Source of the DNA: Rhodospirillaceae bacterium
GTDB taxonomy: Bacteria > Pseudomonadota > Alphaproteobacteria > Dongiales > Dongiaceae
Assembly: GCA_008012315.1 (NCBI GenBank)
Contig: SSEL01000009.1
Coordinates: 1-64,000 of the forward strand
Reading direction: 5' to 3'
Length of the DNA: 64,000 nt
The notes beneath the pieces are model-generated. The model searched no databases. It saw only the letters and a program-made list of their open reading frames with translations, and was not told the DNA's origin. Positions within the stretch are counted from its first letter, which is position 1, and every line of letters begins with the position of its first letter. The position numbers and the translations under genes are program-made. Positions 35,978-42,247 of this stretch are shown piece by piece.

Positions 35978-37036
35978 TCAGGCAGCGTGCAGCAGGGGCT
36001 TGAAGAACACGACCCAGCCGCTCACCAGCACGACCATCACCAGCGACAGCGGCAGGAACACTTTCCAGCCCAGCCGCATCAGCTGGTCATAGCGATAGCG
36101 CGGCACGGTCGCCTTCACCCAGGCGAACACGAAGAAGAAAAAGCAGATTTTCAGCAGGAACCAGAGGAAGCCCGGCACCGCATAGAGGATCGGGATGTTG
36201 AGCGGCGGCAGCCAGCCCCCGAAGAACAGGATCGCCGTCATCGCGCACATCAGCAGGATGTTGGCGTATTCGCCGAGGAAGAACAGCGCGAACGACATCG
36301 ACGAATATTCGACCTGGTAGCCCGCGACCAGTTCGGCCTCGGCCTCCGGCAGGTCGAACGGCGGCCGGTTGGTCTCGGCCAGCGCGGAGATGAAGAACAC
36401 GACCGCCATCGGAAACAGCAGCGGCGTGCCGACGAAGCCGTTGAACAGGCCGAACAGCCCGGCGCCTTCCTGCGCCTTGACGATTTCATTGAGGTTCAGC
36501 GACCCGACATAGAGCAGCACGCAGACGATGACGAAGCCGATGGAAACTTCGTAGCTGACCATCTGCGCCGCCGAGCGCAGGCCGCCGAGGAACGGATACT
36601 TCGAGTTCGACGCCCAACCGGACATGATGATGCCGTAAACGCCCAGCGACGACACCGCGAACAGGTACAGAATGCCGACGTTGATATCCGCCAGCACCAG
36701 CGCCTCGTCGAACGGGATCACCGCCCAGCCGATCAGCGCCAGAGTGAAGGTGATCATCGGCGCCAGGATGAACACGCCCTTGTTGGCGCTGGCCGGGACG
36801 ATGGTTTCCTTCAGGAACAGCTTCAGGCCGTCCGCGAACGACTGCAGGATACCGAATGGCCCGACGACGTTGGGGCCCTTGCGCATCTGCATGGCCGCCC
36901 AGATGCGCCGGTCGAAATAGACCGCGAACGCAACGCCCAGCAACACCGGCACGACGATCGCCAGGATGAGCAGGATTTGCGCAACCAGGTAGCCGATCCA
37001 GCCCCAGCCGAGCGTCGTCTGGAAAAACTCAACCAT
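35978..37036 (-). CDS. nuoH: NADH-quinone oxidoreductase subunit H
   Basis: A 352-aa membrane subunit with eight or more hydrophobic segments that joins the quinone site to the proton channels. Conserved features are [56 protein letters not shown] and a C-terminal [18 protein letters not shown]. It overlaps nuoG by 8 nt. Confidence 0.95.
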
Positions 37037-39089
37037 GGGTACCTGTCGCCTTTTCGTCCGCCTCGCCCACGATCATGCGCGAGCATTCCGCCATGGTGGC
37101 GCTGGCCCGTGCGATCGGGTTCGTCTGATAGAAGTCCTTGATCGGCAGCGCAATGGCTCCCGGCGCAATGTCGCCGGTCGCGCCGAAGCCGGCCCAGGCG
37201 CTTGGCGCAATCACGCCAACGTCCGCGAGATGCGGCCACTCCCCGGCGATGCGCTGGCGCAGCGCGCCGAGGCTGTCGTACGGCAAGGTGCTGGCAAGCA
37301 CGTCGGACAGCGCCCGCAGGATCGTCCAGTCCTCGCGGGCGTCTCCCGGTGCGAATGTCGCCTTCAGCGTGCGCTGCACCCGGCCTTCGGTGTTGACGTA
37401 GGTCGCCGACTTCTCGGTGTAGGCCGCCGCCGGCAGGATGACGTCCGCCGTGCGGACGCCGGCGTCGCCATGGCTGCCGATGTAGACTGTGAACACATCG
37501 GCGAAGGCAGAAAGGTCGGCTTCGTCCACGCTGTGCAGGAACAGGGCTTTCAGCGCGCCGCTGGCGGCATCGGCGGCAATCTTCGCCATGCCGCCCTCGG
37601 CAGCGAACCCGATGTCGAGCGCACCGACCCGGCCAGCCGCAGTATGCAGCACATTGAAACCGTTCCAGCCATCGCGCACCATGGCACACTTGTCGGCCAG
37701 CGAATGCGCCGCGCCAAGCACGGCGGCCGCATCGTTGCGCATCAAGGCCCCCTGGCCGAGGATGATCGCCGGACGCTCGGCCCCCTTCAGGAGGTCGCCG
37801 AACGGATGCGCGCCGCTAACGATGGTCTTGAGGATCGACAGGTCGTCGCCCAGGTGCTCGTACGGGTAGGTGAGGTCGATCCTGGGTCCGATCACCGCCA
37901 CCCGCGCCTTGCGTTTTTTCACCGCCTTGCGGATGCGTGTCGCGATGATCGGCGCTTCCAGGCGCGGGTTCGTCCCGACCAGCAGGATCACGTCCGCCGT
38001 CTCGATCCCGGCAATCGTGCTGTTGAACAGGTAGCCCGCACGCGCCGCCTGCGGAAGCTGCGCCCCGTCCGTGCGGCACTCCACCCGGCTCGACCCGAGC
38101 TTGCCCAGCAGATCCTTCAGCGCCACCAGCGCCTCGACGTCGCTCAGGTCGCCGGCCAGGGCAGCGATCTGCTCACCCTTCAGACCGTCAAGCCCGGCCT
38201 TGATTGCGGCGAACGCTTCCGGCCAGCTCGCCGGTTGCAGCTTGCCATCCCGGCGCACCCACGGGCGGTCCAGCCGCCGGGCGGTCAGGCCGTCGACCGC
38301 ATGGCGGGTCTTGTCGGAAATCCACTCCTCGTTGATCTCCTCGTTGAGGCGCGGCAGCACGCGCATGACTTCGTTGCCGCGCGCATCGACCCGGATGTTC
38401 GAGCCGACGGCGTCCATGACGTCGATCGACTCGGTCTTCTTCAGCTCCCAGGGCCGCGCCTCGAAGGCGTAGGGCTTGGAGGTCAGCGCGCCGACCGGGC
38501 ACAGGTCGACAACGTTGGCCGACATCTCGGACGTGACGGCGCGCTCGAGGTAGCTGGTGATCTGCATGTTCTCGCCGCGGAAGATCGCGCCGATCTCCTC
38601 GACGCCGGCCACTTCCTCGGCGAAGCGCACGCAGCGGGTGCAGTGGATGCAGCGCGTCATCACGGTCTTGATGAGCGGCCCCATGTACTTCTCGGTGACC
38701 GCGCGCTTGTTTTCCTCATAGCGCGAGCCGCCGCGACCATAGGCCATCGCCTGGTCCTGCAGGTCGCACTCGCCGCCCTGGTCGCAGATCGGGCAGTCAA
38801 GCGGATGGTTGATCAGCAGGAACTCCATCACCCCTTCCCGCGCCTTCTTCACCTTGGGCGAGTTGGTGGTGACCACCTGATTGTCGGCGGCCGGCATGGC
38901 GCAGCTCGCCTGCGGCTTGGGTGGCCCCGGCGCGATTTCCACCAGGCACATGCGGCAGTTGCCGGCGATCGACAGCCGCTCGTGGTAGCAGAAGCGCGGC
39001 ACCTCGAAGCCCGCCGCCTCGCAGGCCTGCAGCACCGTCGCGCCCTGCGGCACCTCGACCTCAATTCCGTTGACCGTCAGTTTTGGCAT
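37029..39089 (-). CDS. nuoG: NADH-quinone oxidoreductase subunit G
   Basis: A 686-aa peripheral-arm subunit. The N-terminal 2Fe-2S domain ([20 protein letters not shown]) is followed by [14 protein letters not shown] and [11 protein letters not shown], which ligate clusters N5 and N4, and by a molybdopterin-oxidoreductase-like domain without a cofactor. Length and layout match alphaproteobacterial NuoG. A 759-bp block with palindromic repeats and a nuclease gene separates it from nuoF, unusual inside this operon. Confidence 0.95.
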
Positions 39090-39142
39090 TGCCGCCCTTC
39101 CTCATTCCGTACCAACGTCGTCATGCCCACCTTACCACCCTC

Positions 39143-39289
39143 GTCATGCCGGCGAAGGCCGGCATCCATGGTCAAGAACATCCCCCACCCACCAAGTCCG
39201 GCCTTACCCGTGGACCCCGGCCTGCGCCGGGGTGACGGGGAAAGGATCGAACACATATCCCGTCATGCCGGCGGAGGCCGGCATCCATG
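39143..39289. repeat. REP/BIME-like palindromic repeat cluster, left of the GIY-YIG gene
   Basis: Three palindromes. Unit A (39142-39170) has the head CGTCATGCCGGCG, a short loop and GGCCGGCATCCATG. Unit B (39210-39239) reads GTGGACCCCGGCC then CGCCGGGGTGACGGG; its reverse complement has the same CGTCA head and TCCA tail as A, with stem bases changed in pairs. A second A unit is at 39261-39289. A and B facing each other resemble the paired REP sequences called BIMEs. A degenerate A head (CGTCATGCCCACC) lies near 39118-39132. Confidence 0.85.
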
Positions 39290-39313
39290 CCTTCACCCGC
39301 ATCGGCATTCCCG

Positions 39314-39601
39314 TCACTGCGCGACATCGCTCCACAGGTCACGCCACTCCGGATTGGCTGACAATATGGCATTGATCTTGAACCGTCTCGGCCACTCTTT
39401 CATCCGTTTTTCAAGTGCAATCGCATCGTCGATCCGGTCGACCTCTTGATACCATACCAATTGCTTAAGCCCATAACGCTTGGTGAATCCGTCGACTAGG
39501 CCTTCCCTGTGCTCCCAGACACGACGCACCAGATTGCTGGTCACGCCGATATACAAAGTGCCATTTGGCTTGTTCGTCATGATGTAGACGAAGCCAGACA
39601 C
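39314..39601 (-). CDS. small GIY-YIG nuclease family protein, embedded in repeats
   Basis: A 95-aa single-domain GIY-YIG protein. The name motif appears as VYIMTNKPNGTLYIGVTSNL, with the catalytic Arg in LVRRVWEHREG and Glu in VWYQEVDRIDDAIALEK. The start is GTG at 39601 with AGAAGGA 5 nt upstream. There is no signal or membrane segment and no second domain. It lies between nuoF and nuoG in nuo orientation, immediately flanked by near-identical A repeats that share the same tail (TTCACCCGCATCG). Relatives are orphan nucleases of unknown role; a link to spread of the repeats is inference. Confidence 0.88.
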   Translation of the reverse strand: MSGFVYIMTNKPNGTLYIGVTSNLVRRVWEHREGLVDGFTKRYGLKQLVWYQEVDRIDDAIALEKRMKEWPRRFKINAILSANPEWRDLWSDVAQ

Positions 39602-39620
39602 TGTTTCCTTCTCCCGCGCA

Positions 39621-39838
39621 CGTCATGCCGGCGGAGGCCGGCATCCATGGCTTCACCCGCATCGCCATCCGCAGGCCTTGCCCACCGCATGGACCCCGGC
39701 ATGCGCCGGGGTGACGGGGAAAATACCGATCACCAGCCCGGTCATGCCGGCGGAGGCCGGCATCCATGGCCAAGAACATCCCCCACCCACCAAGTCCGGC
39801 CTCACCCGTGGACCCCGGCCTGCGCCGGGGTGACGGAT
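39621..39838. repeat. REP/BIME-like palindromic repeat cluster, right of the GIY-YIG gene
   Basis: Four palindromes in the order A (39621-39649), B (39689-39718), A (39740-39768), B (39808-39836). The last A-spacer-B block (39740-39837) is a near-identical direct copy of the block at 39142-39239, including the spacer with CAAGAACATCCCCCACCCAC. The first A with its tail CTTCACCCGCATCG copies the A unit that abuts the other end of the nuclease gene. The array ends 11 bp before the nuoF stop codon. Confidence 0.85.
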
Positions 39839-39848
39839 AATGCATCCC

Positions 39849-41161
<1,313 letters not shown>

Positions 41162-41165
<4 letters not shown>

Positions 41166-42218: not shown

Positions 42219-42247
42219 CGTCACCCCGGCGCAAGCCGGGGTCCAGC
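42219..42247. repeat. REP-like palindrome between nuoE and nuoD
   Basis: CGTCACCCCGGCG-CAA-GCCGGGGTCCAGC, the B-type unit of the repeat family found around the GIY-YIG gene 2.4 kb away. Here it is alone and without a partner. It lies in the 81-bp intergenic space of the nuo operon. Confidence 0.85.

Follow-up and report, generated by a model that had tools for sequence, protein, structure and literature searches.

Repetitive extragenic palindromes (REPs) with an unpaired CGTC tag form a described superfamily, which includes the dRS3 repeats of Neisseria, has its main home in the alphaproteobacteria and was found linked to no transposase (Di Nocera et al. 2013, PMC3733652). The REPs and REPINs with a GTAG tag belong to the RAYT/TnpA-REP systems, in which one gene is flanked by palindromes, often in opposite orientation, that are also scattered in the genome. 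We analysed a 64,000-nucleotide stretch of a Rhodospirillaceae bacterium assembly (GCA_008012315.1, contig SSEL01000009.1, positions 1 to 64,000; hereafter the window, which is the start of the contig we number C54), in which a small GIY-YIG nuclease gene and a group of palindromes lie between nuoF and nuoG. We propose that a minimal mobile cassette of gene and palindromic ends is represented here by one copy, which lies within an array of these palindromes and encodes a nuclease that acts on its own hairpin, a reading to which we assign a probability of roughly 0.68.

The window palindromes show the CGTC-1 layout described in PMC3733652, with an unpaired CGTC head and CCA tail, an 8-bp stem, a 4-nt loop and units arranged in pairs, and they fold as single-strand hairpins. 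The initial annotation of this DNA had recognised them neither as CGTC REPs nor the encoded protein as one that groups with Neisseria GIY-YIG homologues. Unlike the CGTC REPs as described in that survey, the window-type REPs are tied to a specific GIY-YIG gene. The cassette works like a RAYT/REP system but is no member of that family: RAYT proteins combine an HUH-Y1 fold with a GTAG tag, whereas the locus studied here combines a GIY-YIG fold with a CGTC tag. Like insertion sequences, the cassette has defined ends at unrelated sites. Free-standing GIY-YIG homing endonuclease genes likewise spread a GIY-YIG gene between sites, but such a gene splits the site that it recognises and mostly resides in an intron or intein, whereas here the gene is intergenic, the recognition-like palindromes are intact on both sides, and the 95 residues hold no separate DNA-binding domain.

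The closest comparison among proteins is with Ssn of Neisseria, reportedly (2025, Nature Communications) a site-specific single-strand nuclease with a repeated target, NTS, that modulates natural transformation. The window protein is likewise a small single-domain GIY-YIG protein, with 48% identity over 93 amino acids, gapless, to a gonococcal homologue that we take to be the published Ssn and the closest known protein. That homologue is located in an array of 16 dRS3 palindromes with the same layout as in the window (L283:1118-2691); a repeated palindrome lies near the gene in both cases and would be the target. The gonococcal record (Neisseria gonorrhoeae NZ_CP119140.1, 2.17 Mb) is filed as a plasmid and is evidently a chromosome.

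The nuoF-nuoG junction and its palindrome array

The junction that bears the insertion measures 759 bp (39090..39848) and separates nuoG (37029..39089, minus strand, identified by a homology search of the NuoG N-terminus) from nuoF (39849..41165, minus strand, matched in 207 of 241 genomes of the class). Within it, the nuclease gene (39314..39601, minus strand) encodes a 95-amino-acid protein of the Ssn-like subfamily that matches Pfam PF01541 at 1.1e-14. The initial annotation had described seven palindromes of two classes around this gene, and the coordinates, the perfect stems and the Pfam match agree with that description. All seven have a perfect 8-bp stem and a 4-nt loop and represent two related sequences: the A unit reads CGTCATGCCGGC-GNAG-GCCGGCATCCA, and the B unit, in reverse complement, CGTCACCCCGGC-GCAN-GCCGGGGTCCA. 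The two differ by compensated pairs, as had been claimed, at stem positions 2-3.

The four A units lie on the plus strand at 39142..39168, 39261..39287 (about 30 bp away from the gene's 3' end), 39621..39647 (about 20 bp upstream of its start) and 39741..39766, the last with the tag GGTC; the three B units lie on the minus strand at 39211..39237, 39690..39716 and 39809..39835. As single-stranded DNA the first A unit folds at -10.3 kcal/mol, a value equalled by 0 of 200 shuffles, and the first and third B units each fold at -14 kcal/mol (z -3.65 and -4.69). On either side of the gene the A units are spaced at a period of 119 bp (first to second, third to fourth), and the blocks of A unit, spacer and B unit around 39143 and 39741 are 87-91% identical. 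A 360-bp insert of gene plus A unit interrupts this array, with a direct repeat of about 50 bp at each end. The repeat consists of an A unit and the tail CTTCACCCGCATCG, and alignment places its left copy at 39261..39311 on the plus strand and its right copy at 39621-39671, an offset of 360 bp; the shared tail noted earlier after both gene-adjacent A units is therefore real and part of this repeat. Across the 64-kb window there were 11 palindrome matches compared to 2.65 expected, and the largest count in 100 shuffles was 7, so the array is not a product of chance. All eight perfect palindromes of the window fall within the nuo region, the eighth being a solitary B-type unit in the nuoE-nuoD gap (42220..42245, plus strand).

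The junction was compared with 14 others, namely the canonical nuoF-nuoG junctions of the same family apart from the host's other nuo operon, whose junction is 33 bp long. As the initial annotation had anticipated, most orthologous junctions hold neither gene nor repeats: in 12 of the 14 relatives the junction is 4-38 bp long, with no nuclease gene or palindrome. The remaining two, both of genus g5 (L031 and L035), carry 425 and 292 bp of other sequence and no nuclease gene, and this junction therefore tolerates insertions repeatedly.

Seven residues of the nuclease (Y6, Y17, G19, R27, H31, E64 and N83) are invariant among 40 homologues and fit an active GIY-YIG site as established for this fold. 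The AlphaFold2 model has a pLDDT of 96.5; its best structural matches in the PDB were the UPF0213 protein 1zg2 and then the GIY-YIG domains of Slx1 and UvrC, and a sequence search of the PDB found no close relative. Family searches gave weak matches to homing endonucleases. A phage origin was rejected, since tblastn against 50,697 phage records gave no match and none of the PADLOC defence families matched. One homologue, on plasmid p1 of Planktothrix agardhii (L285), has no tagged palindrome nearby and lies between an MmeI-type restriction-modification gene and DISARM drmA.

Association of the nuclease gene with CGTC palindromes

For a count of palindrome density we collected 80 named loci of the nuclease subfamily. 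These came mostly from alpha-, beta- and gammaproteobacteria, and also from Desulfobacterales, Omnitrophota, Elusimicrobia, Ignavibacteria, a Dehalococcoidia and an Uhrbacteria record; metagenome bins account for several of these, and their single taxon assignments may be wrong. Up to 100 bp from the gene the density of CGTC-tagged palindromes was 6.96 per kb, approximately 100 times the 0.069 per kb counted at 1-10 kb, whereas that of untagged hairpins was nearly flat (0.69 and 0.30 per kb, respectively). When the set was extended with further loci from additional relatives to 153, a tagged palindrome was present within 150 bp of the gene in 115, and on both sides in 77; 55 of these 77 loci have the two palindromes in inverted orientation, the CGTC tags facing outward. 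The nearest upstream and downstream palindromes were identical at 43 of 79 loci, with a mean edit distance of 1.62 compared to 7.14 when palindromes were shuffled between loci. Another GIY-YIG subfamily from the same genome pool served as control and had a palindrome neighbour at 1 of 16 loci, which by eye is no REP. The expectation that the gene would usually be found beside such repeats, and not away from them, is borne out by these counts, and the link between gene and palindrome is a family-wide rule.

The palindromes also vary with the protein. In genome G130 there are about ten paralogues of the nuclease, and those with palindromes each carry different ones. On a tree of 118 proteins, loop class changed 19 times compared to 32.7 times with shuffled labels, and 0 of 200 shuffles gave a value as low. 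Protein and palindrome distances were correlated in a Mantel test (r 0.28; 0 of 500 permutations as high), but r fell to 0.09 between distant proteins, which indicates mainly co-inheritance. The tracking of loop class along the protein tree likewise shows co-inheritance and does not by itself prove recognition.

At the level of whole genomes, 241 members of the class were scored as REP-positive or not by two degenerate patterns. REP-positive genomes made up 41 of the 72 with the gene and 20 of the 169 that lack it (odds ratio 9.9, p 1e-12, a p value that overstates the case because the genomes are not phylogenetically independent), in agreement with the earlier suggestion that the palindromes are commoner where the subfamily is present.

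Evidence for movement of the cassette, and competing explanations

Comparison of 21 pairs of cassettes at unrelated sites, one of them a pair of sites in a single genome (G014), showed DNA similarity that extends across both palindromes and breaks off at the outer CGTC tag. The end of similarity lay no more than 15 bp from the tag in 20 of 21 cases on the left and 21 of 21 on the right, mostly within 3 bp. Sites with and without the cassette were also found: a site occupied in G006 stands empty in five relatives, one occupied in G007 is empty in its congener G003, and where G011 has a cassette G013 has a solitary REP with an identical palindrome. At an orthologous site the cassette is inverted between two species (G003 and G010), with the palindromes as break points, and at another site G003 and G007 carry different cassettes. 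In Sinorhizobium meliloti Ak57 a segment of 775 bp with the gene and REPs corresponds to 80 bp with REP remnants in Sinorhizobium sp. K101, between flanks that are 95-96% identical. Next to its intact cassette, Ak57 also has a 3' nuclease-gene fragment with a REP on either side (L284:1700-1860, 2001-2340). This fragment is an apparent intermediate, and the Ak57/K101 case looks like decay from a cassette to a REP pair.

The Sinorhizobium records of 3.5-3.7 Mb, similar to the gonococcal one, seem to be chromosomes filed as plasmids. K101 has a second copy of the nuclease (L290) whose flanking palindromes seem to bear a CTC-like tag, not CGTC; tag variants of this kind are mentioned by Di Nocera et al. 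(PMC3733652).

Family-wide pairing, matched palindromes on both sides, ends at the CGTC tag, and sites that are gene-less, inverted or replaced together support, as far as sequence comparison can, the view that the gene and its palindromic ends behave as a mobile cassette, one of a widespread family of such units of about 400 bases at unrelated genomic places. Several observations weigh against a mobile cassette driven by its nuclease. At about a quarter of loci no tagged palindrome was detectable within 150 bp; the two patterns used also gave 20 REP-positive genomes that lack the gene and 31 gene-positive genomes with few REPs. The two A units flanking the window gene (39261 and 39621) share one orientation, whereas relatives mostly have an inverted pair whose heads face outward; the same-way arrangement was seen in 3 of 77 two-sided loci. 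Some of the compared locus pairs share ancestry, so their independence is incomplete. A target-site duplication was sought and none was readable, the empty sites being too diverged or holding REP remnants. Homologous recombination between REPs could also move or flip the gene with no involvement of the nuclease, which could account for the inversion and part of the gene-less sites.

A different reading, which we consider possible although clearly less probable than the mobile cassette, is that the protein is a resident, host-adapted nuclease of the Ssn type that cuts incoming or exposed single strands at REP or NTS sequences and tunes transformation or recombination, with the flanking REPs as its binding sites or regulators. 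The position of the gonococcal homologue in a dRS3 array agrees with such a role, but the patchy presence of the gene (72 of 241 class genomes), the multiple divergent copies per genome, and cassette ends at the tags combined with changing genomic sites suit a mobile unit better. The two readings are not mutually exclusive.

We regard it as improbable that the gene is a passive passenger, with CGTC REPs spread by another enzyme and the GIY-YIG gene merely lying between them or moved by RecA recombination. REPs do occur in genomes that lack the gene, and repeats of the same sequence on either side of it would recombine, from which a palindrome-bounded inversion could arise. A passenger gene, however, would give no reason to expect a separate palindrome for each paralogue, a palindrome class that tracks the protein tree, or a different GIY-YIG subfamily that is not flanked in this way. 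Furthermore, no transposase was linked to CGTC REPs by Di Nocera et al. (PMC3733652), and a RAYT was rejected as the driver since the host genome contains no Y1/RAYT gene, as judged by the lack of any match to Y1_Tnp (PF01797). Least plausible by far is that the palindromes serve the nuo operon and the small gene simply as transcription terminators or as hairpins that stabilise mRNA. We rejected this because, despite their stable folds and intergenic position, the unpaired CGTC and CCA tags are conserved, palindromes flank the gene on either side, similarity between unrelated sites stops at the tag, and untagged hairpins show no comparable enrichment near the gene.

The window itself may not be typical of its assembly. 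In tetranucleotide composition, 48-64 kb and the rest of C54 match the host, and 1-48 kb fits less, with the lowest match at 32-40 kb. The window NuoG was placed outside its family, at 61-69% to every family member; the host was the only one of 241 genomes searched to give two nuoF matches at the threshold used, and the window operon is a second, divergent copy. The deviating composition, the outlying NuoG and the two nuoF matches suggest that the nuo segment may stem from horizontal transfer or from a chimeric end of the contig; the first ~46 kb of the contig may be foreign to the assembled genome. Many copies per genome, frequently in oppositely oriented pairs, are characteristic of CGTC-1 REPs; the assembly holds 8 exact copies of the window-type REP, none outside the nuo region. 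The host assembly (G000) also has about 55 CGTC REPs with a CTTG loop, a different type (9/5 and 8/5), on contigs besides C54, e.g. C3:4454-4595 and C30:31491-31782, which are an orphan REP population; the host genome yielded no second nuclease of the subfamily besides the window copy. Because the contig start may be foreign, the CTTG-loop REPs differ and there is no second nuclease, host REP counts say little about the window nuclease, and the genome-wide A/B count of 8 was not used as evidence of copy number.

A proposed mechanism and its meaning

Under the mobile-cassette reading, the most likely first step is recognition by the nuclease of its own palindrome, folded into a hairpin in single-stranded DNA such as is exposed on the lagging strand or during repair or uptake; the nuclease would then nick this hairpin. 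Repair or strand transfer would copy the cassette, or the palindrome alone, to other sites, and scattered CGTC REPs would be gene-less offspring, much as GTAG REPs are thought to be relative to RAYT genes. The initial annotation had suggested a nuclease-driven REP system in which gene and repeats move as a cassette. The movement is supported by the defined ends, empty sites, inversion and replacements; hairpin recognition, nicking and a role of the nuclease as the cause of movement are what we infer.

No published link between GIY-YIG nucleases and REPs was found in the open literature, a search that did not take in the 2025 Ssn paper. We give about even odds to the broader proposal that these loci represent a distinct kind of transposable element of ~360-410 bp that owes its mobility to a single GIY-YIG nuclease working on CGTC-tagged hairpins, and that this element, present in proteobacteria and several other phyla, is the missing autonomous source of CGTC REPs (a 'CGTC REPtron').

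Alphaproteobacteria, Neisseria and other bacteria have abundant CGTC REPs, whose origin and means of spread the 2013 survey left open. The cassette family points to the missing enzyme: a specific nuclease gene, usually accompanied by a palindrome that matches it, brings the question within reach of a test that needs one protein and one oligonucleotide. Should the movement be driven by the nuclease, a 95-residue enzyme that has no HUH, DDE or recombinase domain would support a mobile element, and the natural pairs of nuclease and target would form a catalogue of candidate sequence-specific single-strand cutters.
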